A stretch of 64,000 bases of DNA from Blautia coccoides (lineage in GTDB: Bacteria; Bacillota; Clostridia; Lachnospirales; Lachnospiraceae), in NCBI RefSeq assembly GCF_034355335.1, contig NZ_CP136422.1, positions 1,429,001-1,493,000 of the forward strand, in the 5' to 3' direction. The first letter of the stretch is position 1; the number at the start of each line of letters is the position of its first letter. Below the pieces are notes generated by a model. That model saw only the letters and a program-made list of their open reading frames with translations, did no database searches and was not told the origin of the DNA. A program made the position numbers and the translations under genes. Below, piece by piece: positions 42,001-58,707 of this stretch.

Positions 42001-44911
42001 AAATCTGCCGCTGATCCAGGGAAACGGTAAAGTGGATATCGCCGTTCATTTTGTGAATACACCATATTGGGAAGTGTCCAACATAGAGGTCACGAATCAG
42101 GGTGAGGAGAAAAAGGACGGCCGTACCGGTATCATGATAGAAAATAATCAATACGGTATTCTGCGGCATTTTTATCTGAAGGATGTGTATGTTCACGATG
42201 TCAACGGAAGTGACAACGGAAAAAATATGCAGAATGGCGGTATCTATGCGAGAGTATACGTAGACAAAAATGGAAAAAGCGACTATAGGGAATTCAATCC
42301 CACCAAGTTTGAGGATCTGGTCATTGACGGAGCCAGGGTGGAAAATGTAAACCGTGTGGGCATTTCCGTGGCATGCAACGATGTGGGATACCTTTATAAT
42401 GAGTGCAGCGCACAGTATCCGGAGGATCTGATAGAAAACTTTTCCAGTACCGATGTGGTGGTGAGAAACTGTTATATAAAGAATGCAGGCGGAGATTCCA
42501 TTATAGCCTACCATCTGAAGGGCGGGCTGTTTGAATATAATGTATCTGATACTGCAAGCCAGACTTCGGGAGCTGCAGGACAGTACAGTGCGGCCATGTG
42601 GCCCTGGAGATGTGTCGACACGGTCTACCAGTATAATGAGGCTTTTGATACCCTGTACAATGGAGATGCACAGGCGTGGGACTGCGACAGTTCCACCAAT
42701 ACCTTATTCCAGTACAATTATTCACATGGAAACATGGGAGGCTGTGTGATGTTCTGCAGAAGTGAGGCGATAAACAGTGTTTTCCGCTATAATATCAGCC
42801 AGAACGATTATTATTTTATAGATGACAATGCAGGATCCCCGACGGCCATGATATACAATAACACATTCTACGGAGGGGATAATACACTGGATGTTATGAA
42901 GTGGAACAATGCCGATTCAAAGCTTCTGCTGCAGAATAATATCTTCTATAATGGAAGCAGCGATCCAAAGAGCAGGACGCCGCGATGGAATTCTGTGGGA
43001 GCGGTCTATTACAACAACCTTTACTATGGATACGACACTAAGGCAAATGATCCGCGGGCAATTGCAGAGGATCCTCTGCTGAAAGCTCCGGGAACGGCTG
43101 AAAACGGCCGGGATACTGCCGGAGGTTACCAATTGACTAAGGGTTCCCCCGCTATTAACGCAGGTGTATTTGTGGATTCAGCGCCGATGTTCGGAGACAG
43201 GCAGTTTGCAGCGGGAGGAGACACGGATTATTTTGGAAATGAACTCTACAATGGAGATCCGGATATAGGTGCCCATGAATTTGCAGAGATAGAGTATCCG
43301 GAGATCACACCCCACGCTCCCTGGGGAATAACAGAGGGAACGGGATATCAGCCGGAAGCCGGCGCGGAAGTTTCTCAGCCGGATAATCCGGGGTATGAAG
43401 AAGGTACAACTGGCTGGAAGGCAGTGGTTTACGATAAGGACAGTAAGGACGATCAGGATCCGGCCTCATATGATGCGTTTACAGCAGAGGGAAAGGGAAG
43501 AGACGGAGGTGCTGCGGCCTGCATTCCTGCCAAGTACAGGGGCGGCATTGAGCAGAAGATCACCGGTCTGGAGCCAAACACAAGCTACAAAGTAACTGTT
43601 TGGGGAAGGATTGATTCGGATGACATTCCTTATAACACATTGACCATGCTTGAAGTAAAGAATTTTATAAAGCCGGGAACCGGACAGGAAGCCGGGGAAA
43701 GGACCGGTTATGCTGCCAGAGCGAACATTAACAGCAATGAGTATCAGAAGGTTTCTGTAATGTTTACAACGGATGCGGAGTCGGATTCCGCGGTACTTAG
43801 GTTTAAAAAGGACTGGGATCAGTGGACAGCCCCGGTGGATTACGATGTATATGTGGATGACTGGAGCATTGAGCTTGTAAGTACAGACTCTCTCGATTTT
43901 GGGGAAGTGGACCAGGCAGATCCGGCAGCCTTGTATACGCTGATCACGGATGTGAGGGCGGAAGGATACCAGGAAAAAGATTATACATCCGAAAGCTGGA
44001 ATGCGTTTGCAAAAGCATTGAAGGAGGCAGAAGATCTGTATGGTTCTTCCATGGAGAATGTGACACAGCAGCAGGTAGATCAGGCGGTGGCAGCTCTGAA
44101 AGCCGCGGCAGAAGGGCTTGAGAAAGGGACTCCGGGTGAGCCGGAGCCAGAACCGGAACCGGAACCGGAGCCAGAACCAGACCCAGGACCGGAACCGGGA
44201 CCAACCCCACCGGAGAACCCGGAAGTAAATATCACCCTGGAGATCAGCAGCGAAGACGGCCTGCCTCAGATGAGCATTGACGAGGATATAGACCTGCAGG
44301 AAATCTTCCTGACAAAAGAGGAACGGCTGGAGGCAGCAAAAGGCACTCCGGTCAAGATTCAGATCCTGGTTCAGAAAGCGGATCCCAGTGATGCGGAAAA
44401 GGCACTTCTGAAAAATCTGCCGGACGGATGGAAATCAGGAGACCTCTTGAAGATCCGGGTTTTGAAACAGATCGGAGACGCTCAGCCCGTGGAAATGAGC
44501 CGGTTAAACAAAGCAATGGCATTTACCTTGGCGGTACCTGACAGTCTCAAGGCTCCCGCAGGCGTGAATCGAACCTTTGGACTGTATCATCTGACAGACA
44601 GCGGTGCAAAAGTGCTCAAGGATCTGGATAAGGACGCGGATACTGTGAAGGTAAAGACAGACAGTATTTCTCTGTTTGCAGTAGTCTATAAAGATGCAGC
44701 AAAAAGTGGAGACAAAGACGGCAGCAAAGATGGCAGTACATCGGGAAAACGGCCGTCAAGCGGCAGCTCCTCGGGCAGCCAGAAGACAAAAACGGTTGCT
44801 ACCGGAGATGATACAGCGGTATTTGCTGTGGTGTTCCAGCTTGTGCTCGCACTCGGAACAGGGGCAGCAGTCTTAAAATGGAGAAAAAAATCAGGCACAG
44901 CGAAGCATTGA
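39086..44911 (+). CDS. Giant surface-anchored beta-helix protein with duplicated module
   Basis: A 1,941-residue exported protein. A signal peptide (about 1-32) and an acidic repeat linker (about 49-128) precede beta-helix module A (about 130-635). Then come a CBM4/9-like sandwich (about 650-810), a FIVAR helical domain (about 835-895), module B (about 902-1400), a second sandwich (about 1430-1605), a second FIVAR (about 1612-1690), a Pro-Glu linker and a C-terminal domain. An anchor closes it: VATGDD, a hydrophobic helix and a KWRKK tail, probably a non-LPXTG sortase signal. Modules A and B share YYVDS-NGDD, IYLKRGSVF-like, HFVNTPYWEVS, GQYSA-WPWR and PDIGAHEF. Likely a polysaccharide-binding or -degrading protein; no catalytic residues could be assigned. 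The start is GTG at 39086 or, by spacing from GGAGG, 39089. Confidence 0.88.
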   Translation: MVKRKHKCAKWFTSLLVIILLLQSLMGQVVYASVQGPGPMQEVTESHVEAPSPEKDSEKDSVEEAEQDPAPDTDAETDTHYADPENGDDALDGGTEATGSGMEMPSPEAEPAEAAEQDPVPAANAGTGTYYVDSENGDDAADGMTEATAWKTLDRINQMQFKPGDEILLKRGSVFSGQQLKPNGEGTQEEPIKLYAYGEGSLPLIQGNAENLYAVHFVNTPYWEVSDIEVTNWGEEDLKGRTGIVVQAENYGTLNHFYLRNVLVHDVNGDSVTKDYDNGGIYFGIRGQDTPSKFNDILLENVTVKDVNRTAISVGATSFSGLYNDHAVGEGYGQEVIDQYSSTNVIIRNCYIENAGGDSIVTLYCDSPVVEYNISNAGCATSGEAGQYSAGIWPWRCEDALFQYNEVYNSKPNGDGQAWDLDWANRTLYQYNYSHGNTGGALLICKEESNYGMFRYNISQNDTYFFDHTYTGGSTAVIHNNTFYAGPDTQGVDRYSSTNTEPKILLANNIFYNGESTNRKPVWQDGSLNYYNNLYYGYDAIPNDNRAVSGDPLLRAPGTGNAVGAVQDNADHTAMAQGYELQKGSPAINSGVFVEYAMVQMFGEDKFHAAAAEADYFGNALYNGEPDIGAHEFSLIDYGKTEPHMPYKNGGGSGGPGIEAPVIANADYEDTKQHASGQPWNQGWSDTPVKPAVLQLPEDTHNWVGAMPAGSKGAINQTIAVTPNADYILKVWAKIDASDEEMKTITNPPLINCEFLGGGSKTASITTNTWQEYTLKLSAGSATQLRLGLQNYGKENRFACYADDWEITAEQKDPEGAYPEQSGTDKSVLATLIADVRYDLANGTYDDKTPEFRQRLTEAVDRAQTEVMDDPDAGQEEVDKAVTQIRDILNEEAPPEKEPTAYYVDSESGDDSNTGTSQDAPWKSLSKVNAQVFNPGDQIYLKRGSVFTEEQLKPLGEGSNDQPIILDAYGEGNLPLIQGNGKVDIAVHFVNTPYWEVSNIEVTNQGEEKKDGRTGIMIENNQYGILRHFYLKDVYVHDVNGSDNGKNMQNGGIYARVYVDKNGKSDYREFNPTKFEDLVIDGARVENVNRVGISVACNDVGYLYNECSAQYPEDLIENFSSTDVVVRNCYIKNAGGDSIIAYHLKGGLFEYNVSDTASQTSGAAGQYSAAMWPWRCVDTVYQYNEAFDTLYNGDAQAWDCDSSTNTLFQYNYSHGNMGGCVMFCRSEAINSVFRYNISQNDYYFIDDNAGSPTAMIYNNTFYGGDNTLDVMKWNNADSKLLLQNNIFYNGSSDPKSRTPRWNSVGAVYYNNLYYGYDTKANDPRAIAEDPLLKAPGTAENGRDTAGGYQLTKGSPAINAGVFVDSAPMFGDRQFAAGGDTDYFGNELYNGDPDIGAHEFAEIEYPEITPHAPWGITEGTGYQPEAGAEVSQPDNPGYEEGTTGWKAVVYDKDSKDDQDPASYDAFTAEGKGRDGGAAACIPAKYRGGIEQKITGLEPNTSYKVTVWGRIDSDDIPYNTLTMLEVKNFIKPGTGQEAGERTGYAARANINSNEYQKVSVMFTTDAESDSAVLRFKKDWDQWTAPVDYDVYVDDWSIELVSTDSLDFGEVDQADPAALYTLITDVRAEGYQEKDYTSESWNAFAKALKEAEDLYGSSMENVTQQQVDQAVAALKAAAEGLEKGTPGEPEPEPEPEPEPEPDPGPEPGPTPPENPEVNITLEISSEDGLPQMSIDEDIDLQEIFLTKEERLEAAKGTPVKIQILVQKADPSDAEKALLKNLPDGWKSGDLLKIRVLKQIGDAQPVEMSRLNKAMAFTLAVPDSLKAPAGVNRTFGLYHLTDSGAKVLKDLDKDADTVKVKTDSISLFAVVYKDAAKSGDKDGSKDGSTSGKRPSSGSSSGSQKTKTVATGDDTAVFAVVFQLVLALGTGAAVLKWRKKSGTAKH
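44138..44213 (+). repeat. Pro-Glu/Pro-Gly coding simple repeat
   Basis: About 25 codons alternating Glu-Pro, then Asp-Pro-Gly-Pro, encode a stiff wall-spanning linker. GAGCCG/GAACCA-type hexamers make the DNA prone to length change. Confidence 0.85.
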
Positions 44912-45034: not shown

Positions 45035-46243
45035 CTAAAACACAAAATAACACGGATCACTGTCCGCACATAAATCTTTTACATCAGTCCATTCATGTGT
45101 CTGGGCCGATTTTAAAATGGCATCAGAGATCAATTCAACAGCATACCCGTCACGGAAATTGGGAACGGGTTCTGTATCCTCCTGTAAAGAGCGGAAGAAA
45201 TCATAACATTCAATGATCTTTGTTTCAGTGTACCCGATGCCCAGGGCGGGGATGGGCCACAATCCGCTTCCATAAGGATGGTTTGGACCTGTGTATACCG
45301 TGCGGAATCCCCGTCTGTCTGCAGCATCGCCGGCAAAGCAGACCTGAAGCTCATCACGGCGTTCGTAGTTAAAGAAAATGGACCCCTCTGTCCCGTGGAT
45401 CTCAAAAGTGATATAGTTATTTCTTCCCCAGGCGTTTCTGGTAGCTTCGATGCTTCCAAAAGCGCCGTTTGTGCATTCCACCATAAATATGCACTGATCA
45501 TCCACGTCCACCGCTTTTTTAGGAGTATTCTGTTCCACACGCGCGTTGCCCAGGCTGTCAGACATACCGGTCTGCAGCGGTCTTTCTTTGATGTAAGTTG
45601 CTGTCCGGGCGTTGACCCTTTTAAAATCTCCTACAAGAAAGCGGAGCATGTCTACCACGTGGGTTCCGATATCGCCCAGGGCGCCGCTTCCGCATATATC
45701 TTTTTGAAAGCGCCAGGACAGAGGAGAATCGGGATCGGCAGACCAGTCCTGAAGATAGGTACCGCGAAAGTCAAGGATTTCGCCGATGGCACCTTCGTCA
45801 ATATATTTTTTGGCAAGCTGTACCGCGGGTGTTTTCCGGTAGTTAAATGCCACCATGGTTTTTACATGGTTCTTTTTTGCGGTCAGATACATTTCTTTTG
45901 CCTCATCGGAGGTCAATGCAAGAGGCTTTTCACAGATAATGTGTTTTCCTGCTTTTGCTGCGGCAATCGCAATTTCAGCGTGTACATTATTAGGTGTGCA
46001 GATATCTACAACAGAAATTTCCGGATCATTTATGATATCATGCCAATCTGTGGAATAAGCCTCGAAAGCCAATTTTTCTTTGGCATCTCTGGCAACGGAC
46101 TCATTCATATCTACGATCATTTTTTTTACGGGGATTGCGGGAGCCGGCCAAAAAAACATGGGCATACCGGCGTATGCGATAGAGTGTGCCTTGGCCATAA
46201 AACCGGCTCCGATAAGTCCTATATTTATTTTCTCTGGTTTCAT
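45035..46243 (-). CDS. Gfo/Idh/MocA dehydrogenase, levoglucosan dehydrogenase-like
   Basis: A 402-residue NAD(P)-dependent sugar dehydrogenase: Rossmann start NIGLIGAGFMAKAHS, CEKP motif with catalytic Lys (about 98-101), FNYRKTPAV, and GDIGTHVVDM with the Asp and His of the active site (about 187-196). FFWPAPAIPV, TYLQDWSADPDSPLSWRFQK and IYFNYERRDELQV-like stretches closely resemble my recollection of levoglucosan dehydrogenase, which oxidises C3 of 1,6-anhydroglucose. It is also a clear paralogue of the protein at 51977. The ATG at 46243 is preferred over an upstream TTG that overlaps the AAAGGAG. Cotranscribed with the isomerase-like gene at 46261. Substrate to be proven. Confidence 0.85.
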   Translation of the reverse strand: MKPEKINIGLIGAGFMAKAHSIAYAGMPMFFWPAPAIPVKKMIVDMNESVARDAKEKLAFEAYSTDWHDIINDPEISVVDICTPNNVHAEIAIAAAKAGKHIICEKPLALTSDEAKEMYLTAKKNHVKTMVAFNYRKTPAVQLAKKYIDEGAIGEILDFRGTYLQDWSADPDSPLSWRFQKDICGSGALGDIGTHVVDMLRFLVGDFKRVNARTATYIKERPLQTGMSDSLGNARVEQNTPKKAVDVDDQCIFMVECTNGAFGSIEATRNAWGRNNYITFEIHGTEGSIFFNYERRDELQVCFAGDAADRRGFRTVYTGPNHPYGSGLWPIPALGIGYTETKIIECYDFFRSLQEDTEPVPNFRDGYAVELISDAILKSAQTHEWTDVKDLCADSDPCYFVF

Positions 46244-46260
46244 AGATATACTTTCTCCTT

Positions 46261-47175
46261 TCAAATAACAAATTGTCTCATATAGCGGTTGGAAAGCCGG
46301 AGAGCATTCAGTATCTGTTCGGAAGAGCTCTCAAAGGCTTTATCTTCTATTTCAATACAGCTATAACCGTTGTAGCCGATATCGGTCAATGCGGATACAT
46401 ATTTTCCCCAGTTTACGTCCCCGAGTCCCGGGAGTTTTGGTGACATATAGTCTAAGGGGTAAGCCATAGTTCCCACATCCTCCAGTTTATCCCGGTAAAC
46501 CTTTATGTCTTTATAGTGTACATGGAAGATTTTTTCTTTGAACTCGTATAAGGGCTTGATGTAATCCATCTGCTGCCAGACAAAGTGGGAGGGGTCATAG
46601 TTTAAACCGAAATGATCACTTGGGATCAGATCAAAGGCCTTACGCCAGATCGCAGGGGTGGTCATAAGGTTCTGTCCGCCTGGCCACTGCTCGGGGCCGA
46701 AAAGCATGGGGCAGTTCTCGATAGCTATTTTTACGTTATACTGTTCTGCAAGTCTGATAATAGGTGTCCACACCTCTTTAAAGATGGTCAGATTCTCCTC
46801 TATGGTCAGATTCTGGACACGGCCGATAAAGGTAGTGATGGTACTGACATTTAATTTTGGAGCAGCGATGATCATAGCCTTTAAATGCTCCACTGCCTTT
46901 TGGCGCTGGGTAAGATCATCGGAAATGGTGTTGGGATAATAGGCCAGTGCGGATATGGCAACATTTTTTAAAAGGCAGTATTGTTTAATAGAAGCAATCC
47001 TGCTTTCGGTAAGTGCTTCAATATCAATATGTGTGATTCCCGCATAACGTCTGGCTGCTTTTTCTTTTGGCCAACAGGCTGCTTCAACACACTCATAACC
47101 AAGTTCTGAGGCGGTGTCAATGACCTCTTCAAAGGAAGAGGATTCAAGTATTGAACTGATAAATCCAAGTTTCAT
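46261..47175 (-). CDS. Sugar phosphate isomerase/epimerase-fold protein (TIM barrel)
   Basis: A 304-residue xylose-isomerase-like TIM barrel. Metal ligands appear in AIENCPM (Glu), NYDPSHF (Asp, His), FHVHYKD (His) and CIEIED (Glu). The first gene of the leftward unit; the ATG at 47175 follows AGAAAGGA. In levoglucosan and 3-keto-glycoside pathways, proteins of this fold perform beta-elimination or hydration of the 3-keto sugar (LgdB-type roles; established for the family in Bacillus and related systems). That is the proposed role beside two Gfo/Idh/MocA dehydrogenases. Ordinary epimerase activity is the alternative. Confidence 0.87.
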   Translation of the reverse strand: MKLGFISSILESSSFEEVIDTASELGYECVEAACWPKEKAARRYAGITHIDIEALTESRIASIKQYCLLKNVAISALAYYPNTISDDLTQRQKAVEHLKAMIIAAPKLNVSTITTFIGRVQNLTIEENLTIFKEVWTPIIRLAEQYNVKIAIENCPMLFGPEQWPGGQNLMTTPAIWRKAFDLIPSDHFGLNYDPSHFVWQQMDYIKPLYEFKEKIFHVHYKDIKVYRDKLEDVGTMAYPLDYMSPKLPGLGDVNWGKYVSALTDIGYNGYSCIEIEDKAFESSSEQILNALRLSNRYMRQFVI

Positions 47176-47247
47176 AAATAGATTCCTTTCTGCAAGAATG
47201 ACACAGCGCTTGTGCGCTGCAAGAAGTATGTAACAATAGCAAAAATG

Positions 47248-47259
47248 ATTTGCGCAAAT
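47248..47259. promoter_or_regulatory. LacI-type operator, leftward unit
   Basis: ATTTGCGCAAAT, a perfect 12-bp palindrome, lies just downstream of the predicted leftward transcription start. Confidence 0.8.
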
Positions 47260-47272
47260 TTTTATATAACCT

Positions 47273-47301
47273 ATTATGAGGGGGAGGAGAGAAAAAGTCA
47301 A
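47273..47301 (-). promoter_or_regulatory. Leftward promoter of the isomerase-dehydrogenase unit
   Basis: On the minus strand: TTGACT (47301-47296), 17 bases, CATAAT (47278-47273); predicted start near 47266, just upstream of the operator at 47248-47259. Confidence 0.7.
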
Positions 47302-47376
47302 TGTGTGAAAAGTGACAATAAGAAGTGTACATGATTGTGGAAATATGCCAAAATATAGAAGGATTTAAAAAAGATA

Positions 47377-47405
47377 TTGACGAATAAAACCAAACGAGGT
47401 ATGAT
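47377..47405 (+). promoter_or_regulatory. Rightward promoter of the isomerase-ABC-dehydrogenase operon
   Basis: TTGACG (47377-47382), 17 bases, TATGAT (47400-47405); predicted start near 47412, directly before the operator at 47419-47434. Confidence 0.75.
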
Positions 47406-47418
47406 TGCTGCATCAAGA

Positions 47419-47434
47419 AAATTTGCGCAAATTT
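47419..47434. promoter_or_regulatory. LacI-type operator, rightward operon
   Basis: AAATTTGCGCAAATTT, a perfect 16-bp palindrome, a few bases after the predicted transcription start, placed to block elongating or initiating polymerase. Confidence 0.85.
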
Positions 47435-47465
47435 AATAAAAAGCACAAAAATGGAGGTATAGTAC

Positions 47466-48278
47466 ATGAGAGTTGGTTATATGACAAATGGTTTCGGTCC
47501 CCTTGTAGGGGATGGCGCCGGTGTGACAAGTGTTAAAGATATCCGGTATCTGACTATGGGTAATGATGAGGAGATTCTGAAAAGCATAACAGAGGTAGGC
47601 TTCAGAAGCATTGAAGTCCTGGAAGGCAACCTTACAAAATATTGTGATGACCTTTCGGTGCTGAAAGACATGCTGCAAAGGTATTCGGCAGAAATGATGA
47701 GCGTCTGTGTGGGAGCAAACTTTATATATCAGGATGCTTTGGAAGATGAAATGTACCATATGGAAACGGTTGCCAAGGCGGCAAAGGAAGTAGGCGTTAC
47801 ATATATAGGAATCTGCGGAGGAGCGATCAGAGGAAAAGGGATTCGGGAGGAAGATTACACACTGCTGGGAAAAGGGCTGGATATGGCTGCTCAGGTGTTT
47901 GGGGAATACGGACTGAAAGCGAGCTATCATCCCCATCTCGGCTCCATGGCAGAGGCGCCGGAACAGATTGATAAATTGTTTGCCAGAACATCTATTGATA
48001 TCTGTCCTGATTTAGCGCACCTTGCAGCGGGCGGAGGAGATCCCCTGGAAATCGTAAAGAAATATTATGACAGGATCTCCTTTGTACATTTAAAAGATCT
48101 GGATAAAAATGGGTTTGCTCCTCTTGGTACCGGAAGTATTGATATTGACGGGGTTCTTGATTTCCTGAAACAGAAAAATTACAGCGGGGATTATCTTGTG
48201 GAAGTAGATGGATATGCCGGTGATCCGGTTTCCGCGTGCAGGACTTCTTATGAGTATCTTAAAGGTAAACTTGTTTAA
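47466..48278 (+). CDS. Sugar phosphate isomerase/epimerase-fold protein (second TIM barrel)
   Basis: A 270-residue IolE/IolI-like TIM barrel, quite different in sequence from the one at 46261. Candidate metal ligands: EVLEGN (Glu), SYHPHLGS (His), CPDLAHL (Asp/His), FVHLKD (His) and VEVDGY (Glu). GGAGG precedes the ATG. It heads the rightward operon, before the importer genes. With the leftward homologue it matches the two-member eliminase/hydratase set of levoglucosan-type pathways. Confidence 0.87.
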   Translation: MRVGYMTNGFGPLVGDGAGVTSVKDIRYLTMGNDEEILKSITEVGFRSIEVLEGNLTKYCDDLSVLKDMLQRYSAEMMSVCVGANFIYQDALEDEMYHMETVAKAAKEVGVTYIGICGGAIRGKGIREEDYTLLGKGLDMAAQVFGEYGLKASYHPHLGSMAEAPEQIDKLFARTSIDICPDLAHLAAGGGDPLEIVKKYYDRISFVHLKDLDKNGFAPLGTGSIDIDGVLDFLKQKNYSGDYLVEVDGYAGDPVSACRTSYEYLKGKLV

Positions 48279-48300
48279 AAAAAGAAAGGGCAGGTAGAGT

Positions 48301-49500
48301 ATGAAAAGAAAATTGGTAAGTGTGGTATTGGCTATAGGAATGATCGGGACAATGATGGCAGGCTGCGGAAATTCCGGAAATTCTGCAGATAGTTCAGATA
48401 CGGCAGCAAAGACCCAGAACGGTACAACAGCGGATGCAGATATAGAAAAAGAGACAGATGCCGGGGATAAGGCTGTTCAGGCCGGAGACGGTAGTAAAAT
48501 CTTGTCAACAGGTCCGAACGGAGAAGCGGCTGCGCCGGCATCTGATATTACGTTGACAGAGGAAGAGAAGCAGCAGATCCGCGATGGCGGATACAAAGCG
48601 GCGATCTCACTTCATTATGGGGGAAATGACTGGGCAACCTCCCAGTTGGAAGGTTTAAAGGCTACATTTAAAGATCTGGGGATAGAAATTGTTGCCACCA
48701 CGGACGCAAATTTTTCGGCAGAGCAGCAGGTATCAGACATAGAAACTATCATGGCAAAAGATCCGGATGTCATCATCAGTATTCCGACAGACGCCACAGC
48801 TACTGCCGACGCGTTCAAGAAAGCGGCAGATGAAGGGATCAAGCTGGTATTTATGGACAACGTTCCGTCAGAGATGACAGCGGGAAAAGATTATGTGAGC
48901 TGTGTATCTGCAGATAACTATGGAAACGGCTGCGTTGCCGCTGAATTAATGGGCGAAGCTCTTGGCGGAAAAGGACAGATCGGAATGGTCTATTATGATG
49001 CAGACTTTTTTGTGACAAATCAGAGAGACCAGGGTTTTAAAGAGACAATGGCAGCAAAATATCCGGATATTGAGATCGTGACAGAACAGGGATTTACAGA
49101 TGAAAATGGATGTTCCGAGCAGGGAGATGCCATTTTAACACAGTACCCTATGATCAATGGTATCTATGCGAGCTGGGATGTTCCCATGGAGGGGGTACTC
49201 TCCTCTGTAAAGGCAGCGGGATTGACCGGAGATGATGTGAAGCTTACGACCATTGACTTGGGGAATAATATCGCCAAAGAAATTGCAGAAGGCAATGTTG
49301 TGGGACTGGGTGCACAGCTTCCGTATGACCAGGGTGTTGCGGAGGCGACACTGGCGGCATATTCTCTGCTGGGAAAAGAGGCGCCGGCATATGTTGCGGT
49401 TGCGGCAAAAAAAGTAGACGGATCCAATATCCTGGAAGCGTATAAAGATGTCTACCATGTTGAGGCGCCGGACTGGCTGCAGGAAGCAGCAGGCAGATAA
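48301..49500 (+). CDS. Ribose-type (RbsB-like) sugar-binding lipoprotein
   Basis: A 399-residue receptor: signal peptide and lipobox MAGC (Cys about 22), an Asp/Thr/Ala-rich linker to about 80, then a periplasmic-binding-protein type 1 fold (AAISLHYGGNDWATSQLEGL; TDANFSAEQQVSDIETIM; DVIISIPTDATATADAFKKA; YASWDVPMEGVLSSVKAAGL). It captures the substrate for the ATPase and permease downstream. The C-terminal half of the regulator at 53347 is a homologue of this fold with the same landmarks, so the two probably bind the same ligand. Confidence 0.93.
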   Translation: MKRKLVSVVLAIGMIGTMMAGCGNSGNSADSSDTAAKTQNGTTADADIEKETDAGDKAVQAGDGSKILSTGPNGEAAAPASDITLTEEEKQQIRDGGYKAAISLHYGGNDWATSQLEGLKATFKDLGIEIVATTDANFSAEQQVSDIETIMAKDPDVIISIPTDATATADAFKKAADEGIKLVFMDNVPSEMTAGKDYVSCVSADNYGNGCVAAELMGEALGGKGQIGMVYYDADFFVTNQRDQGFKETMAAKYPDIEIVTEQGFTDENGCSEQGDAILTQYPMINGIYASWDVPMEGVLSSVKAAGLTGDDVKLTTIDLGNNIAKEIAEGNVVGLGAQLPYDQGVAEATLAAYSLLGKEAPAYVAVAAKKVDGSNILEAYKDVYHVEAPDWLQEAAGR

Positions 49501-49511
49501 GGAGGGAGAAA

Positions 49512-51008
49512 ATGAACCCATATGTGCTGCAAATGCAGGGGATTGAAAAATCTTTTGGAGTACCGGTGCTCAAAGGCGTTGATTTTTCCTTGAAGAAGGG
49601 GGAAGTTCATGCTCTGGTTGGCGGGAATGGAGCCGGAAAATCTACACTGATGAAAATTATGACAGGTGTTTACACCAAGGATGCCGGGAAGATTTTGGTC
49701 AATGGACAGGAAGTATCCATACAGGACACCCACGATGCGAAAAAGAACGGAATCGGAATGATATTTCAGGAATTGTCTCTCATTCAGAGTATGACAGTGG
49801 AGGAGAACATCTTTCTGGGTGCGGAGATCGTTGAAAAGGGAATCCGTAAAACTTCAGATATGACAAGACGCTCCTGTGAGGTTCTGGAAGAATTGGGGAT
49901 CGAAGTGAACCCAAAGGAGATGGTTGGTAATCTGAGCGTGGGTTTAAGCCAGATGGTCGAGATTGCAAAGGCTATGGAAAAAGAGGCCAAGATCCTGGTG
50001 CTGGATGAGCCTACAGCGTCCTTATCAGATGCAGAGACCACACAGCTTTTTAAGATGATGAAGGACCTGCAAAATAAAGGGGTTTCCATGATCTACATTT
50101 CCCATCGTATGAGTGAGATCATGGAGATCGCGGACAGTATATCAATATTGCGGGACGGTAAAATTGTACATACCAGCCGGATCTCAGACATCACTATGGA
50201 TGAGATCATTGCTCATATGATGGGGGAGAATACAGGGAAAAAATTTGACTGGATTCCCAGAACATATGACAAGGACGGCCCTGATCTGCTGAGCGTAGAG
50301 CATCTCAAAATAAACGACAGGATATCAGACATTTCTTTCAGTTTGAAAAAAGGAGAGATTCTGGGATTTGCCGGTTTGATGGGAAGCGGAAGGACAGAGA
50401 TTTTGGAGACTTTGTTTGGGATCAGGAAACAGGAAGGGGGAGTCGTAAAGCTGAACGGCAAAACGATGAAGATAGGAAACCCCACAGAGGCTGTTAAGAA
50501 CGGTTTTGCACTGATTCCAGAGGACAGAAGGAAAAAGGGGCTTGTTCTGATCCACTCTGTAAAAGAAAACGCCATTTTGCCGAAGGTGGCAAGGCTGAGA
50601 AAACACGGAGTATTTGTTGATGAAAAAATGGCTGATGAGATGGTGGAAGATAATGTCCGGAAGCTCAATATAGTGACAGATGATATTCATAAGAGGATCA
50701 ATCTGCTGTCCGGAGGCAACCAGCAAAAGGTAGTCCTTGCCAAGTGGATGAATATGCGGCCGGAAGTCATGATGCTGGATGAACCCACTGCGGGCGTTGA
50801 TGTAGGTGCGAAAGCAGAGATCATCGCGCTGATGAGGGATTATGCGGAGGAAGGAAAGGGTGTTTTGTTTGTCTCATCGGAACTGGCGGAGCTTATGGCA
50901 GTATGTGACAGGATCATCACCATATATGATGGAAGGATCACTGGAGAGATGGATAGGAGCAAAATAGATTCAGAGGAGGAATTACAATATGCAATCCAGC
51001 AAAAATAA
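49512..51008 (+). CDS. Ribose-type sugar ABC transporter ATPase (two-domain)
   Basis: A 498-residue RbsA/MglA-type ATPase with two tandem cassettes. The first has Walker A GGNGAGKSTLMK (about 36-47) and Walker B ILVLDEPTASLSD (about 162-174). The second has a degenerate P-loop GLMGSGRTEIL (about 292-302), signature LSGGNQQKVVLAKWM and EVMMLDEPTAGVDV, as usual in this group. GGAGGGAG precedes the ATG, 11 bases after the receptor gene. It energises uptake through the permease that overlaps its end. Confidence 0.96.
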   Translation: MNPYVLQMQGIEKSFGVPVLKGVDFSLKKGEVHALVGGNGAGKSTLMKIMTGVYTKDAGKILVNGQEVSIQDTHDAKKNGIGMIFQELSLIQSMTVEENIFLGAEIVEKGIRKTSDMTRRSCEVLEELGIEVNPKEMVGNLSVGLSQMVEIAKAMEKEAKILVLDEPTASLSDAETTQLFKMMKDLQNKGVSMIYISHRMSEIMEIADSISILRDGKIVHTSRISDITMDEIIAHMMGENTGKKFDWIPRTYDKDGPDLLSVEHLKINDRISDISFSLKKGEILGFAGLMGSGRTEILETLFGIRKQEGGVVKLNGKTMKIGNPTEAVKNGFALIPEDRRKKGLVLIHSVKENAILPKVARLRKHGVFVDEKMADEMVEDNVRKLNIVTDDIHKRINLLSGGNQQKVVLAKWMNMRPEVMMLDEPTAGVDVGAKAEIIALMRDYAEEGKGVLFVSSELAELMAVCDRIITIYDGRITGEMDRSKIDSEEELQYAIQQK

Positions 51009-51951
51009 AAAGAATATACAGTGGGATAAGTATATGGTTTATATTATTTTCACCGCTGTGTTCATACTGTTTGCATTGATCCTGGGGAATAAAGGCTTTT
51101 TGCAGCCCAGGAACCTGATCAATATTCTGAGGCAGACAGCAATGATATCCGTTATGGCGGTTGCCGGCGTTTTTGTCATGGCAGCGGGGCAGATCGACCT
51201 GACGGTGGGCGCAGTAACCGCCATGACGGCAATGCTGGTTTCTCTTGTCCTGCAGGCTACAAACAGTATTCTGCTGGCACTGGTGACTGGCTTGGGATTT
51301 GGCGTGGTCATTGGCTGTATAAATGGGCTGCTGGTTACAAAGCTGAAGCTTCCGGCTTTTCTGGCCACCCTTGGTATCATGGAGATCGTAAGAGGTGCTG
51401 CCATGTGGATCACCAATACCGCCGCGGTTCCCATTGGAAATAAAACTTTTTGCAATATTTTCGGGATCGGGAGCGTTGCGGGGATTCCGGTGCTGGTTTT
51501 GTGGACTATCCTGTTTTATATTATCGGAATTCTGATCTTTAACAAAAGCGCATTTGGCAGACATGTTCTCGCCACAGGCGGAAATGAGAATTCTGCGGTC
51601 TACAGTGGTATTAAAACAGACAGAGTGAAGATCATTGCTTTTACCATGTCAGGCGCATTTGCGGCGTTTGCGGGGATCATGTATGCGGCACGTATGCAGG
51701 CGGGAAGATATTCCTACGGCGACGGCGATGAAATGTCTGTTATCGCTGCGGTCGTATTGGGAGGAACTGCAATGTCGGGCGGCACCGGTTCCGTGATCGG
51801 AGCGCTGTTTGGCTCCGTGCTTATGGGGATGATGAATAACGCGGTCATCCTTGCAAATCTTAGTTCTGCGCAGCAGACAATGATCAAAGGCGGAATTATA
51901 ATCCTGGCGGTTGCCATCAGCAATCTCAGCCGAAGAAAAAAGAACAATTAA
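50989..51951 (+). CDS. Ribose-type sugar ABC transporter permease
   Basis: A 320-residue RbsC-type permease with about eight to ten hydrophobic helices. QIDLTVGAVTAMTAMLVSLV and GTAMSGGTGSVIGALFGSVL are the two diagnostic segments of the family. It overlaps the ATPase gene by 20 bases, its ribosome site GAGGA lying inside that gene. It forms the channel of the importer. Confidence 0.95.
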   Translation: MQSSKNKKNIQWDKYMVYIIFTAVFILFALILGNKGFLQPRNLINILRQTAMISVMAVAGVFVMAAGQIDLTVGAVTAMTAMLVSLVLQATNSILLALVTGLGFGVVIGCINGLLVTKLKLPAFLATLGIMEIVRGAAMWITNTAAVPIGNKTFCNIFGIGSVAGIPVLVLWTILFYIIGILIFNKSAFGRHVLATGGNENSAVYSGIKTDRVKIIAFTMSGAFAAFAGIMYAARMQAGRYSYGDGDEMSVIAAVVLGGTAMSGGTGSVIGALFGSVLMGMMNNAVILANLSSAQQTMIKGGIIILAVAISNLSRRKKNN

Positions 51952-51976
51952 AAAATATTTTAAGGAGGATTCGATC

Positions 51977-53152
51977 ATGAAAAAATTAAATGTAGGATTA
52001 GTAGGAGCAGGTTTTATGGGAAAGGCACATGTGGTGGCGTATTCTAATATGCCGAAATTTTTCTGGCCCGCCCCGGCAGTACCTGTATTAAAAACAGTCT
52101 GTGATATTGAGCCGTCTATCGCGGAAGAAGCAAAGGACAGGTTTGGATTCCAGGCGAGCTGCACAGATTGGCATGATATTATCAATGATCCTGAAATTGA
52201 TGTTGTAAGCATTTGTACACCAAACAACGTCCATGCACCCATCGCTATCGCTGCGCTGCAGGCAGGCAAACACGTTATTTGTGAAAAACCCATCGCATCT
52301 AACCTGGATGATGCAAAGGCAATGGCGGATGCCGCCAAAGAAGCAGCGAAGAACGGCATTGTAAGTATGAATGCGTATCAGTATCGCAGAGTTCCTGCGA
52401 TCGATCTCGCTAAAAAATTTATTGACGAAGGAGCAGTTGGGGAAATTCTGAATATTCGTTGTACATATCTGCAGAGCTGGTCCGCAGACCCGGATTCCCC
52501 CTTGTCATGGAGATTCCAGAAGGATATTGCAGGGGCAGGAACTCTGGGAGATATTGCATCACATGTTATTGACATTGCCCAGTATCTGGCCGGTGACATT
52601 GAGGAAGTAGTCTCTATGGTAAAAACATATATCAAAGAAAGGCCTGTACAGGAAGGCGGAGTGGACCTGCTTGGCACTGTAAAGCTGGGCGCAGATGCCC
52701 CCAGAAAAGAAGTGGACGTGGATGATGAAGATTCCTTCCTGGTAAAGTTTAAAAACGGAGCTGTCGGCAGCATTGAAGCAACCCGTAATGCGTGGGGCAG
52801 AAATAACTTTATCACCATGGAGCTGCACGGAACAAAGGGCAGCATTGCATTCAATTATGAAAGACTGAACGAATTGCAGGTATGCTTTGCGGATGATCCG
52901 GATGACAGAAGAGGATTCAAGACAATTTATACGGGACCGGCGCATTTCCACGGAGAAGTAACCTGGAATATCCCCGGTATGAATATCGGTTACGGCGAAC
53001 TGAAAACCATAGAGATGTATGAGTTTATAAAGGCGGTCACAGAGGGGTATCAGCCCAGTACCAATTTTGAGGTGGGATACCGCGTGGAGAGAGTCTGCGA
53101 TGCGGTTATGAGATCAGCGCAGAATAAAGCATGGATGAAAGTTGAAGATTAA
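51977..53152 (+). CDS. Gfo/Idh/MocA oxidoreductase, second paralogue
   Basis: A 391-residue NAD(P)-dependent oxidoreductase, roughly half identical by eye to the one at 45035: NVGLVGAGFMGKAHVV, CEKP, YQYRRVPAIDLAKKFIDEGA, TYLQSWSADPDSPLSWRFQK and GDIASHVIDI (active-site Asp and His). FNYR is replaced by YQYR and the tail lacks the last residues of the paralogue, so the two probably act on different intermediates: one oxidising the substrate, one reducing the 3-keto sugar back to the normal sugar. AAGGAGG sets the start at 51977. It is the last gene of the rightward operon and is followed by a terminator. Confidence 0.87.
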   Translation: MKKLNVGLVGAGFMGKAHVVAYSNMPKFFWPAPAVPVLKTVCDIEPSIAEEAKDRFGFQASCTDWHDIINDPEIDVVSICTPNNVHAPIAIAALQAGKHVICEKPIASNLDDAKAMADAAKEAAKNGIVSMNAYQYRRVPAIDLAKKFIDEGAVGEILNIRCTYLQSWSADPDSPLSWRFQKDIAGAGTLGDIASHVIDIAQYLAGDIEEVVSMVKTYIKERPVQEGGVDLLGTVKLGADAPRKEVDVDDEDSFLVKFKNGAVGSIEATRNAWGRNNFITMELHGTKGSIAFNYERLNELQVCFADDPDDRRGFKTIYTGPAHFHGEVTWNIPGMNIGYGELKTIEMYEFIKAVTEGYQPSTNFEVGYRVERVCDAVMRSAQNKAWMKVED

Positions 53153-53162
53153 AAAGACAGAG

Positions 53163-53192
53163 CAGGAACCGTTTGCGGTTCCTGTTTCTTTT
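53163..53192 (+). terminator. Terminator of the rightward operon
   Basis: CAGGAACCG (53163-53171), TTTG loop, CGGTTCCTG (53176-53184), then TTTCTTTT. Confidence 0.9.
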
Positions 53193-53210
53193 GTTACGAA
53201 AATATTCCCG

Positions 53211-53222
53211 AATTTGCGCAAC
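53211..53222. promoter_or_regulatory. LacI-type operator at the regulator's own promoter
   Basis: AATTTGCGCAAC, the third copy of the TTTGCGCAAA site with one changed end base, ends four bases before the -35 box, as expected for autoregulation. Confidence 0.75.
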
Positions 53223-53225
53223 AAA

Positions 53226-53254
53226 TTGACTTTTCTTTTGGGTAATTGTATAGT
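53226..53254 (+). promoter_or_regulatory. Promoter of the LacI-receptor fusion gene
   Basis: TTGACT (53226-53231), 17 bases, TATAGT (53249-53254). Confidence 0.75.
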
Positions 53255-53346
53255 AGTAATATACTGTAACTACACACGGCTGCTGTCCCGTGAGGTGTTT
53301 TTTCGGATAGCAGCCGTATACTATAAACAGGTGGGAGAATGATAAT

Positions 53347-55398
53347 ATGGCCACAATTAATGACATTGCAAAAATGGCAGGTGTTTCAACATCTACGGTT
53401 TCCCATGTAGTCAACAAAACACGTTATGTCAGTCCTGAGAAAGTTGAAAAGGTGGAGAAAGCAATACGGGAACTGGATACTCCGCCTAATTTTGTTCTAA
53501 AGAAAACGTTGCCGCACATGCCGGAAATAAAAGAGAAATATATCCTTATGCTGATCGCTGATAAGAAAAGCAGCTTTCAGCGCAGAGTAGAGCAGCAGAT
53601 TGATGAAGGGTTAAGAGATACGGGGTATTCTTTGATCACCATAGAATGTAATTCGGATATTTCCGGCATGAAAAGCTTTTTTGATGTTTTGCTGGCTGGG
53701 AATATGGTAACCGGGATTATTGTCTTTCCGGATGAAAAGGATATTCTTATACAGCGTGTCCTTTTGGATGTCAAGGTCCCTGTTATAGTTCTGGGCAGAG
53801 AAGTCAGGAATTTTATGGCAGACACAATTTGTACAGACACCTTGGATGGGGCCTATAAAGCCACAAAGCATTTGATCAACAAGGGCCATGAACGGATCGG
53901 ATTTCTGGGGAGAAGCAGGGAGCGTTCGCCGAAACGGCTGGAAGGCTTCAAAAAAGCGCTGCGGGAGTATCATATACCGGAACTGTCCGAATATATCTAT
54001 CCCCATTTACAAAAGGAGCAGGATATTTTCGAGGCTTTGGATGAGCTTTTGAGCGGTGAACAAATGCCCACAGCCCTGATCGTTGCCAATTACGCGGTGG
54101 TAATACCTTTTCTGAAATATATAGATGCACACAATATCACCTGTCCCACAGACATATCCGTGGTATGCTTCGGTTCCTTTGACTGGGCGCCCCTGCATAC
54201 ACCGGCCCTTACAACAGTGGAACAGGATACGGAACAGTATGTAAAACTGACAGTTGAGACCTTGCTGCAAAGGATTGCAAACAAAGAGTATGCCAATGTG
54301 CCCGCCTACAAAAATGTCTATCGGACCGTTATGCTGCAGACAAAGCTGGTGGTGCGCTCCTCAACCTGCGGTATTGGCAGAGGCCCGTTCGGAGAAAAGG
54401 CGTCTTCTATGAGTGAACTTGTACTCTCGGAAGCTGAAATACAGAATATCAGGTATAAAAAGCTGACGGCAGCTATCTCCTTCCATTATGCGGGAAAGGC
54501 ATGGATGGAGCTGCATCAAAAGGGAATACGAGATATTTTTGACAATCTGGGTATCTCTATCATTGCGATCACAGACGCCCACTTTGATCCTCAGCTGCAG
54601 TGCAGACAACTGGACAGTTTGAGGATGCTGGAACCGGATATTCTGATCGCTATTCCCACCGATAATAAACTGACCGCAGATGCCTTTAGGAAAATTGCGG
54701 ACAGCGGGATAAAATTGATCTTAATAACTAATGTACCGGATGGACTGCGGCCGGAGGATTATGTTACCTGCGTTTCTATTAATGAACATTCTCATGGACA
54801 GAATATGGGACATGGCCTTGGGGAATATATGTATCAGCATAATATGAAAAACTATGGGTTGATCGTCCATGGAGCTGACTTCTACGCGACCATACAAAGG
54901 GATAATGCGGCAAAACAGGTCATAAGCGAGGAATATCCGGTGCTGCATTTATGTGAAGAGATCAGGTTTGAAAAAGAGGATGAGGTTTATAAAAAGACAA
55001 AGGATTTGATCAAACGCTATCCGGAAATAGAAGCTCTGTATATTTCCTGGGACGGCCCTGCGATGGAGGCCATTGCAGCGCTGACAGAAATGGGGCGGAC
55101 TGATGTCGCCATCGTCACCAGCGACCTGGATTATGCGGATGCTATGAATATGGCAAAGGGCGGTATGATCAAGGTGCTTAGCGCACAGTGCCCGTATGAG
55201 CAGGGACAGGCAATTGCTTTGGCGGCTGCAAAATCTGTGTTAAATGAAAAAGTTCCGTCATTTATCGGAATTGAGCCGATCAGCGTTACACCTGATAATC
55301 TGTTGAAATCATGGAAAAAAGTGTTTAAAGAGGAACCAGGGCAGGAACTGGTGCAGGCATTTAAAGAGAATCCCAACTATGTTTCTGCAAAAGAGTGA
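53347..55398 (+). CDS. LacI-family regulator fused to a second sugar-binding domain
   Basis: A 683-residue protein, twice the normal LacI length. Residues 1-50 are the LacI helix-turn-helix and hinge (INDIAKMAGVSTSTVSHVVN). Residues about 60-340 are a regular LacI sensor domain (ILMLIADKKSSF; HERIGFLGRSRERS; PTDISVVCFGSFDW). Residues about 360-675 form a second periplasmic-binding fold that follows the operon receptor at 48301 (AAISFHYAGKAWMELHQKGI; TDAHFDPQLQCRQLDSL; DILIAIPTDNKLTADAFRKI). There is no signal peptide or membrane segment. TTTGCGCAAA palindromes at three nearby promoters are its probable operators. It likely represses the pathway until the sugar binds; two sensor domains could read substrate and intermediate. 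Confidence 0.93.
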   Translation: MATINDIAKMAGVSTSTVSHVVNKTRYVSPEKVEKVEKAIRELDTPPNFVLKKTLPHMPEIKEKYILMLIADKKSSFQRRVEQQIDEGLRDTGYSLITIECNSDISGMKSFFDVLLAGNMVTGIIVFPDEKDILIQRVLLDVKVPVIVLGREVRNFMADTICTDTLDGAYKATKHLINKGHERIGFLGRSRERSPKRLEGFKKALREYHIPELSEYIYPHLQKEQDIFEALDELLSGEQMPTALIVANYAVVIPFLKYIDAHNITCPTDISVVCFGSFDWAPLHTPALTTVEQDTEQYVKLTVETLLQRIANKEYANVPAYKNVYRTVMLQTKLVVRSSTCGIGRGPFGEKASSMSELVLSEAEIQNIRYKKLTAAISFHYAGKAWMELHQKGIRDIFDNLGISIIAITDAHFDPQLQCRQLDSLRMLEPDILIAIPTDNKLTADAFRKIADSGIKLILITNVPDGLRPEDYVTCVSINEHSHGQNMGHGLGEYMYQHNMKNYGLIVHGADFYATIQRDNAAKQVISEEYPVLHLCEEIRFEKEDEVYKKTKDLIKRYPEIEALYISWDGPAMEAIAALTEMGRTDVAIVTSDLDYADAMNMAKGGMIKVLSAQCPYEQGQAIALAAAKSVLNEKVPSFIGIEPISVTPDNLLKSWKKVFKEEPGQELVQAFKENPNYVSAKE

Positions 55399-56242: not shown

Positions 56243-56705
56243 GATGGGATGCTGAGTTGAAAAAATGATTTTGCGGAGGCTGTGGAATGTATGGGGGTAT
56301 CTTAATATGGCCTGTAAAATAAGTCCTTAATGAAAAATCGCCAATTCCGGCAAATGCCGGGTTCTGGCGATTTTTCTTTTAGGGAAGTTTTTTACAACCC
56401 CTTTTTATGTGGCAGGAAAAGAAGATGGAGAAATGAAAAAATGTGGTCTCGTGTTTTCTGGATTCGTGTCCACGTTTTGTGCATGTTGCTCAAAGAATGT
56501 CGAAAATCGTACAAAAGATTGGGGATGTTCTATCGCTTTTTACAAAAAATGGGCATTATTTTATATGGTTCCGTGACCATGTTTTGAAGTATTGATACAT
56601 AAGATGTAATAATTTAGTATTAGTGCATGACAGTTAGAAGTAATATATAAAAATCAAACAGAAATACAGAGCAGCAGAGTGATATTGACGGAAAGAGATG
56701 GAAAA
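56243..56705. other. Gene-poor region with terminator and integrase-like repeats
   Basis: Holds the terminator at 56333-56380 and then AT-rich sequence without a convincing gene. GTGTCCACGTTTTG (56466-56479) and GTGACCATGTTTTG (56573-56586) are close copies of one 14-bp motif; a poorer copy lies near 56442. Given the recombinase remnant just downstream, they may be old integrase arm or attachment sites. Confidence 0.45.
56333..56380 (+). terminator. Terminator after the lipoprotein gene
   Basis: AAAAATCGCCA (56333-56343) pairs with TGGCGATTTTT (56365-56375), with an inner CCGGC/GCCGG stem; T-rich tail to 56380. Confidence 0.85.
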
Positions 56706-57392
56706 ATGTCTGAAGGAAGAAGTATTACAAGAAAAGATATTGCCAGAGAGGCCGGGGTGTCGATTTCTGTGGTCTCCCGTGCACTTAACAACAGCGGTTA
56801 TGTGGAGAAAGAGAAGAAAAAGAGAATTATTGACATTGCCAACCAGTATGGATATATTCCCAATCCGATTGCCATGGCACTGCAGCAGAAAAAAACTCAC
56901 CAACTGCTCTTTTTCTGCGGAGATTTGACTGGAACCTATTATAACCAGATGTATCACGGCATGGCCAGAGCAGCGGAAAAAATTTACTATACAAAGCTCC
57001 CAAAATCCGAGACATCTATCCGCGTAGTTCCAATGGCTGAACATACCGAGGAATGCCTTCTTGAATTGAAGAAACGGTATATACAGGCGAATCGTATGTG
57101 TGAGCAGGTCTTGTGCAATAAAATGCAGAAAGTGCCTACAAAATCCAATATCTATGATGTCTGGGAAAAACTATTGAACTTTTCAGGAATTGAATATGCA
57201 AAGGTACACAAACTGCGTAAAACGTTTGCGACAATCACCATATCAGAGGGAGTTGCGATCAGTGATGTCTCCCAGGTTCTGGGTCACAGAGATACAGGGA
57301 TCACCCTTTCAGCGTACTATAAAGCAACGGGCTCCGGCAGCGACGCTGTCCGGAGAACACTGAATACGGTATATGGTTCAAAAATCTCCTGA
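56706..57392 (+). pseudogene. In-frame chimera: LacI N-terminus joined to tyrosine recombinase C-terminus
   Basis: One open frame of 228 codons encodes two unrelated halves. Residues 1-91 are a LacI start: helix-turn-helix ITRKDIAREAGVSISVVSRA and the beginning of the sensor domain (LLFFCGDLTGTYYNQMYHGM). From about residue 92 (nt about 56979) it becomes the C-terminal catalytic part of a phage-type integrase: PKSETSIRVVPM, HKLRKTFATI (His168, Arg171), LGHRD (His194) and a Tyr at 204/205. The recombinase part lacks its first catalytic Arg and DNA-binding domains, so it cannot recombine; the LacI part lacks most of its sensor. A DNA-binding LacI headpiece could still be made. It is probably a scar of integration and deletion. 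Confidence 0.85.
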
Positions 57393-58578: not shown

Positions 58579-58707
58579 TAAAAAGTTATCCATATTCAAA
58601 TATTTTATCCCCAAAACCATATAGAAATCTGCATACGGGTATGTTACAACTATATAGAAAGAGCAAAGCAGAAAATATATAATATATTAGGAAAAGGAGC
58701 CGTTCAG

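Follow-up and report, generated by a model that had tools for sequence, protein, structure and literature searches.

What sugar does a divergent gene cluster in a Lachnospiraceae bacterium serve, and through which protein does the cell sense it? In the window, that is, the whole 64,000-nucleotide stretch of DNA that was analysed, positions 45035-55398 carry eight genes in divergent units (Table 1). The gene content is established by the sequence and includes every gene named in a preliminary description: two dehydrogenases of the LGDH clade, two different TIM barrels, and the binding protein, ATPase and permease of a sugar ABC importer. The shared operators announced there are also found, with ATTTGCGCAAAT twice between the units and TTTGCGCAA before the regulator gene. 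Levoglucosan, or 1,6-anhydroglucose, arises from heated starch or cellulose. The levoglucosan-type pathway proposed for these genes stands for LgdA, which exceeds the NCBIfam cut-off, and for the 270-aa barrel, 42% identical to a gene of Paenarthrobacter nitroguajacolicus LG01, but it lacks an LG01-type LgdC in the cluster. The reading that we lean towards, with slightly better than even confidence, is an lgd-type operon for levoglucosan uptake and catabolism, controlled by a chimeric repressor that would sense its inducer through a fused domain.

Table 1 Features of the locus, with positions in the window.
Feature	Positions	Strand	Basis or remark
LgdA, predicted levoglucosan 3-dehydrogenase (Gfo/Idh/MocA)	45035-46243	-	NF052479 and PDB 6a3f scores; start from GAAAGGAG/ATG
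304-aa xylose-isomerase-like TIM barrel, predicted 2-hydroxy-3-keto-glucal hydratase (LgdB2 role)	46261-47175	-	
Operator ATTTGCGCAAAT	47248-47259	.	Lies 13 bases past the -10 element of the lgdA-side promoter
Predicted promoter of the barrel-lgdA unit, TTGACT-17-CATAAT	47301-47273	-	10/12 consensus match only
Predicted promoter of the lgdB1-importer-Dh2 unit, TTGACG-17-TATGAT	47377-47405	+	10/12 consensus match only
Operator ATTTGCGCAAAT	47421-47432	.	Within perfect 16-bp palindrome AAATTTGCGCAAATTT (47419-47434)
LgdB1 counterpart, predicted 3-keto-levoglucosan beta-eliminase, 270-aa TIM barrel	47466-48278	+	42% identity to LG01 gene; model
Sugar-binding lipoprotein of the importer (PF13407)	48301-49500	+	Domain match; lipobox read from sequence
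Sugar ABC ATPase, two ABC domains	49512-51008	+	Domain matches
Sugar ABC permease (PF02653)	50989-51951	+	Domain match
Dh2, second LGDH-clade dehydrogenase, predicted 3-keto-glucose reductase replacing LgdC	51977-53152	+	
Terminator-like hairpin 3' of Dh2	53160-53187	+	Terminator scan
Imperfect operator TTTGCGCAA	53213-53221	+	4 bases upstream of the promoter predicted for the regulator
Predicted regulator promoter, TTGACT-17-TATAGT	53226-53254	+	
LacI-SBP chimera, proposed lgd regulator, 683 aa	53347-55398	+	PF00356, PF13377 and PF13407

LgdA scores 731.4 bits against NF052479, the NCBIfam equivalog model of levoglucosan dehydrogenase (curated cut-off 650). It reaches 601.6 bits against LGDH (PDB 6a3f) versus 96.6 bits against DgpA, and its sequence is much nearer to the former. 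DgpA belongs to the C-glycoside system DgpA/DgpB-C of the PUE strain, in which a TIM-barrel eliminase likewise follows a Gfo/Idh/MocA dehydrogenase; DgpB-C takes rank 45 in the fold comparison of the LgdB1 model and rank 34 in that of the 304-aa barrel. The catalytic residues of a related enzyme are given in PMC5969746. The open reading frames of lgdA, the 304-aa barrel and Dh2 are listed with starts upstream of the likely ones, as judged from orthologue lengths, and GAAAGGAG precedes the ATG of lgdA at 46243.

The LgdB1 counterpart is modeled with a pLDDT of 94.9 and an IolE-like fold. It matches the LgdB1-type gene adjoining lgdA in strain LG01 (locus L028), which was isolated for growth on levoglucosan (PMC10066097). 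The three importer components are 57, 45 and 47% identical to those of LG01, the binding protein giving the 57%. Related loci were sampled among close relatives; from the best 79 loci listed, 15 without an LgdA above 400 bits were left out, and an LgdB1-type gene is present in 58 of the 64 that were retained. One carrier is Ohessyouella blattaphilus; in Schaedlerella arabinosiphila, by comparison, lgdA has no lgd genes around it within 10 kb. The published lgd pathway of Bacillus smithii S-2701M (cluster LC529899; PMC7676230) and LG01 (PMC10066097), whose report also covers lgdA neighbourhoods in Firmicutes, shares with the window LgdA, LgdB1, a sugar ABC importer, a nearby LacI-type regulator and the logic of oxidation, elimination, hydration and reduction. 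The window departs from it in having Dh2 in place of an LgdC of the LG01 type, a 304-aa barrel unlike those of Bacillaceae (323 aa) and of actinobacteria (337 aa), a chimeric regulator and a divergent layout. On sequence grounds, the enzymes fit the known pathway in a variant form.

In such a variant, the binding protein and ABC importer would take up the anhydrosugar, LgdA would oxidize it at C3 with NAD, and LgdB1 would open the 1,6 bridge by beta-elimination, giving 2-hydroxy-3-keto-glucal. The 304-aa barrel may then hydrate this compound to 3-keto-glucose, which Dh2 would reduce to glucose while recycling NADH. For the hydration step, fold comparison of the 304-aa barrel model gives the hydratase AtHYD (PDB 8ro4) as the closest named enzyme, with epimerases close behind; the barrel is a putative hydratase in the LgdB2 role. 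The protein aligns with an LgdB2-like protein of Halobacillus at 24% identity (57 bits), and of the barrels compared it most resembles that of a Mycobacterium MAG locus (32%, 169 bits). Among the relatives of the Halobacillus protein listed (at least 120, many of them nameless), none bears the name B. smithii.

The substrate itself could differ, as the preliminary description allowed. The operon may serve another anhydrosugar or a 3-keto-glycoside (mannosan, galactosan, or an aryl- or C-glucoside, for example), with LgdA and Dh2 each using its own, related substrate instead of catalysing the first and last steps of one pathway. Dh2 has its own conserved pocket, with 20 divergent columns, and in G343 it occurs with no LgdA in view; C- and O-glucosides are served in other bacteria by gene sets of similar logic (PMC10628242). 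In addition, the record titles of many carriers suggest insect, bird or mammal guts, where a pyrolysis sugar is no obvious main food. Against this stand the LgdA score above the equivalog cut-off, the resemblance of LgdB1 and the importer to the LG01 cluster, and the mutual exclusion of Dh2 and LgdC-like genes, as expected if Dh2 carries out the LgdC step. We judge another substrate rather unlikely and retain levoglucosan as the more likely one. This would place a levoglucosan-type pathway in Lachnospiraceae of gut type, for which foods containing heated carbohydrate could be the source of the sugar; test drinks of heated dextrose contained levoglucosan, and its plasma level rose after drinking (PMC3885560).

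Which enzyme performs the reduction is a distinct question. Dh2 scores 629.8 bits against NF052479, below the cut-off. It forms its own clade (support 95/83 in a tree of 33 chosen loci) and differs from LgdA at 20 conserved columns of an alignment from which five long or odd rows were dropped. Among the 64 lgdA loci listed, Dh2 occurs in 18 and LgdC-like genes in 29, never together; neither is in view in the other 17, some of which lie on short contigs. In the cluster of the window, LgdA and Dh2 are the only dehydrogenases, and no LG01-type LgdC was found. Because of this absence and of the mutual exclusion, Dh2 seems to replace the reductase LgdC. Elsewhere in the genome, however, an LgdC-like gene (L006; 141 bits to LG01 LgdC) lies beside a 329-aa barrel that is 47% identical to the barrel of an actinobacterial lgd locus, and such LgdC/LgdB3-like genes could also act. 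This pair slightly lowered our confidence in the overall reading and made somewhat less remote an alternative in which Dh2 would act as another dehydrogenase on levoglucosan or a relative, while hydration and reduction would fall to LgdA itself or to enzymes from elsewhere in the genome. The 17 loci with neither gene in view, and a suggestion cited in PMC10066097 that LgdA has both activities, point the same way. Nevertheless, the Dh2 clade is old and strongly conserved, its pocket differences are fixed, the gene lies within the operon, and the exact operator is found nowhere else in the genome; we regard this alternative as rather improbable. With Dh2 as the putative reductase, the locus supplies candidates for two steps left variable in the published pathway.

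The exact 12-mer ATTTGCGCAAAT occurs at two places in the 6,097,890-base genome, both in this divergent promoter, and the reversed control at none. In the window, TTTGCGCAA has five matches, two palindromes being counted on both strands, against 0.64 expected, and none of 100 shuffles reaches five. A looser and weaker test, AATTTGCGCAAATT with at most two mismatches, gives two matches against 0.48 expected, a number reached by 6 of 100 shuffles. The promoter scan is overall at chance (21 found, 19.9 expected) and was used only for its agreement with the operators; the terminator scan gave 15 against 8.9 expected. ATTTGCGCAAAT recurs in related loci, which include the same-locus pairs L017/L124 and L020/L130. 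A LacI-type repressor would bind ATTTGCGCAAAT beside the transcription start of each divergent unit, and would also bind upstream of the promoter of its own gene. Such a palindromic operator near its own and target promoters, where binding is predicted, agrees with membership of the LacI/GalR family, as do the PF00356 (58.7 bits) and PF13377 (109.4 bits) matches.

The regulator is the oddest part of the locus and had been missed in the preliminary description. It is not an ordinary LacI protein but a chimera of LacI and a binding protein, with a helix-turn-helix (residues 3-48), a native LacI ligand domain (about 62-335), a linker and a fused importer-type binding-protein domain (about 343-660). 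Like PurR, RbsR and LacI, it has the PF00356 helix-turn-helix, the LacI ligand-domain fold, a palindromic operator with a central CG and probable autoregulation. Unlike them, it carries the extra C-terminal domain and an altered hinge region, as judged against a motif that we assume to be typical. The equivalent of PurR D275, which we take to be the effector-contacting aspartate, is a glycine in the window regulator; this aspartate is absent in 28 of 32 rows and present in four, the rows including the two same-locus pairs mentioned above. PMC4052901, in its consulted part, defines LacI proteins as two-domain and mentions no such fusion. Among titles and abstract openings of the open-licence PMC literature, we found no mention of a LacI protein with an extra binding-protein domain, nor of such a fusion in work on levoglucosan and LacI.

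The fused domain has a single origin, and its conservation exceeds that of the native LacI ligand domain in all 435 pairs compared, two duplicate rows having been dropped. Most pocket residues are kept; H105, W111, R242, W292, D319 and Q339 (numbering of the binding protein in the window) are among the conserved positions, and presumably line the cleft, judging from their alignment to a list of contact positions. Given this origin, the retained pocket and the unequal conservation, the fused domain is probably the sensor. This cytoplasmic copy of the binding protein would be the main one for the inducer, the old LacI ligand domain serving mainly as a scaffold for dimerisation and transmission. 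Alternatively, the fused domain could be a structural add-on or a docking module, for oligomerisation or enzyme contact for example, with the LacI ligand domain still sensing the inducer. Consistent with this, the fused domain lacks two acidic positions conserved in the binding protein, it is unlike the local transporter in loci with GH32-like hydrolases, and the rapid divergence of the LacI ligand domain may result from shifts in its effectors. But the six conserved pocket positions, the missing effector aspartate and the uniform conservation contrast all argue against an add-on, which we consider unlikely.

If the fused domain is indeed the sensor, a LacI repressor would have captured the sugar-binding protein of an importer to read its inducer inside the cell, its own pocket decaying to a scaffold. 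The family would then have spread with the same ATTT(G/A)CG(C/T)AAAT operator, reaching levoglucosan loci in both Bacillota and Spirochaetota as well as two or more further types of sugar operon. Compared with the binding protein of the importer, the borrowed domain shows fixed pocket changes, and these suggest that it reads an intermediate of the pathway, for instance the 3-keto sugar. We put this scenario forward tentatively, as possible though short of probable. Such a sugar switch, in which the receptor of an importer has been joined to a repressor whose operator is defined, would offer a ready test case for sensor replacement in evolution, and the chimera might find use in biosensors for levoglucosan.

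A fused domain that matches the local transporter in every locus was considered and rejected. Loci L121, L123, L125 and L127, whose hydrolases we call GH32-like (Pfam was run on two of them), have a binding protein that lies outside the lgd group in the tree, yet their fused domain is of the lgd type.

Every gene named in the preliminary description was borne out by ORFs, Pfam and NCBIfam in the window (G000:C1:1429001-1493000, in a 6.1-Mb genome on a single contig), and Lachnospiraceae provide the nearest rows for its LgdA, Dh2, binding protein and fused regulator domain. The dehydrogenase LgdA scores 731.4 bits against the NCBIfam levoglucosan dehydrogenase equivalog (cut-off 650), and its best solved relative is 6a3f (601.6 bits; DgpA, 96.6 bits). 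The levoglucosan (lgd) pathway itself is already known, with the chemistry of its four steps described in PMC7676230, and lgdA neighbourhoods in Firmicutes are already in print. Judged by sequence, the window enzyme complement is a variant of this pathway, and the chimeric regulator is the new element. The substrate, the activities of Dh2 (the second LGDH-clade dehydrogenase) and of the hydratase, and the sensing role are predicted.

Features of the lgd cluster, its neighbours and related loci
Coordinates	Feature	Content
	Leftward unit	304-aa TIM barrel (predicted hydratase), lgdA
	Rightward unit	270-aa TIM barrel (LgdB1 counterpart), binding protein, ATPase, permease, second dehydrogenase
	Regulator gene	Downstream of terminator-like hairpin; own predicted promoter
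39086-44911	1941-aa secreted-looking protein	Beta-helix-like stretches, CBM_4_9, FIVAR domains; convergent with lgdA
53276-53317	Inverted repeat	13 bp, 92% complementary, 16-nt loop; between predicted regulator promoter and start codon; possibly a leader hairpin
56679-57392	One ORF	LacI HTH at start, phage-integrase catalytic domain at end; resembles two genes joined at a junction
57736-59898	AraC regulator, then Gfo/Idh/MocA protein	GH109 C-terminal domain (PF21252); further NAD-dependent sugar enzyme near the cluster
near G000:C1:5979840-5980778	L006, elsewhere in the genome	Gfo/Idh/MocA gene, 329-aa barrel
L087 2512-5415	Decayed copy	Only parts of LgdA, 304-aa barrel, Dh2 and chimera found; no match for importer or LgdB1

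At least 79 distinct named loci emerged when the GTDB species collection was scanned; 64 of them have LgdA above 400 bits. One belongs to Paenarthrobacter nitroguajacolicus LG01, a strain isolated for growth on levoglucosan according to PMC10066097; the catalytic residues reported there, E103/H193 in LgdA and E95/H185 in the reductase LgdC, map onto the two LG01 genes taken as these enzymes. The LG01 cluster also carries counterparts of the window LgdB1 (42%), binding protein (57%), ATPase (45%) and permease (47%). In Schaedlerella arabinosiphila, lgdA is 87% identical to that of the window, and no other lgd gene was detected within 10 kb of it. A Cohnella sp. JJ-181 locus holds two LgdA and two LgdB1 copies.

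An LG01-type LgdC is absent from the window cluster, where Dh2 (629.8 bits, below the 650 cut-off) is found instead. Among the matches listed, the 64 lgdA loci comprise 18 with Dh2, 29 with an LgdC-like gene, none with both and 17 with neither, counts whose weight is limited by locus relatedness and short contigs. Dh2 sequences form a single clade adjoining LgdA (16 rows, support 95/83). LgdA and Dh2 rows share the EKP lysine and the D/H pair. At least 90% of each group (31 LgdA and 16 Dh2 rows) agrees on a group-specific residue in 20 columns, including F140Y, N141Q, T145V and D173S near the catalytic motifs and others in 335-342. We infer that Dh2 catalyzes the last reduction. Two observations argue against this. 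First, L122 (genome G343) has Dh2 but no LgdA within the 19 kb seen, together with a 304-aa-barrel relative, an LgdB1-like gene, an importer and two other Gfo/Idh/MocA genes. Second, the window's genome has an LgdC-like gene at L006 (141 bits to LG01 LgdC; LgdA, 158 bits), adjoining a barrel 47% identical to that of a Cryobacterium lgd locus. Another such barrel (361 aa, 42%) lies beside a Gfo/Idh/MocA gene at L005; both barrels have relatives in actinobacterial and Treponema lgd loci. The L006 and L005 enzymes could take part in the pathway; a whole-genome search placed no exact operator 12-mer at either locus.

In the 683-aa regulator, a LacI HTH and a LacI ligand domain are followed by a third domain, which belongs to the family of importer binding proteins. 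Within the genome, residues 343-666 best match the neighbouring binding protein (206 bits; next, 25), and at the junction the chimera (IGRGPFGEKA...LSEAE) resembles the N-terminal segment of that importer protein (STGPNGEAA...LTEEE). Sequence reading showed no membrane segment between the domains, which would place the fused domain in the cytoplasm. Proteins with a LacI HTH and PF13407 are not rare: counted by eye, 117 of the best 120 of 553 relatives (E 1e-10, among 7995 scored) have both. The full-length chimera occurs in 10 of 397 Lachnospiraceae genomes, including all four with LgdA above the cut-off. In a midpoint-rooted tree, to be read with a long-branch warning, 30 fused domains form one clade (100/100) located among lgd binding proteins; the binding proteins local to four GH32-type loci lie apart from it.

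Several comparisons suggest that the fused domain is likelier to be the sensor. At contact positions taken from what we assume to be the ribose-binding-protein contact list, transferred by alignment and anchored on 2ioy, it matches the window binding protein at 16 of 24 sites (overall identity, 35%). H105, W111, R242, W292, L320, Q339 and Q344 are retained almost throughout fused domains; D186 and D205 are substituted. In 435/435 chimera pairs, similarity is higher across the fused domain than across the LacI ligand domain, with clade A means of 75% (HTH), 35% (LacI ligand domain) and 62% (fused domain). In conservation the fused domain comes close to the importer protein (mean 66 vs 68%; higher in 6/15 loci). 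Compared at equal HTH identity with 24 plain LacI proteins drawn from this collection of loci, a rough control because this set is small and mostly of close actinobacterial relatives, the chimeras have the less similar LacI ligand domain in every bin containing both: 24 vs 28% (HTH 40-50), 23 vs 30% (50-60), 25 vs 47% (60-70; 13 plain pairs), 45 vs 91% (80-90) and 73 vs 91% (at least 90). An Asp aligns with PurR Asp275 in 4/32 rows.

Copies of the predicted operator, ATTTGCGCAAAT, are found 13 and 15 bases past the predicted -10 boxes of the two divergent promoters, and 4 bases upstream of the regulator gene's predicted -35 there is a further, imperfect copy. The exact 12-mer has only two sites in the genome, both in this divergent region. 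Related Lachnospiraceae, an Oscillospiraceae MAG, Halobacillus and Salinicoccus also have ATTTGCGCAAAT upstream of the corresponding genes. In a second chimera clade, which includes Treponema and GH32 loci among others, TTTACGTAAA stands in its place, and both sequences are found in Halobacillus and Salinicoccus. One or the other is present in 28/30 loci with a full-length chimera (all except L063 and L128), and in 4/59 named loci without one: L011 (a short contig), L015 (edge-truncated chimera), L021 and L042. At L121, L123, L125 and L127 (G110, G077, G354, G222), clade-B chimeras and TTTACGTAAA palindromes accompany a GH32/GH43-like hydrolase and an ABC importer with an unrelated local binding protein. 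At L126 (G133) and L128 (G316), the chimera-linked operon lacks LgdA and encodes a binding protein, an ABC importer, a zinc alcohol dehydrogenase, a Gfo/Idh/MocA dehydrogenase and two TIM barrels; L126 carries two chimeras in tandem.
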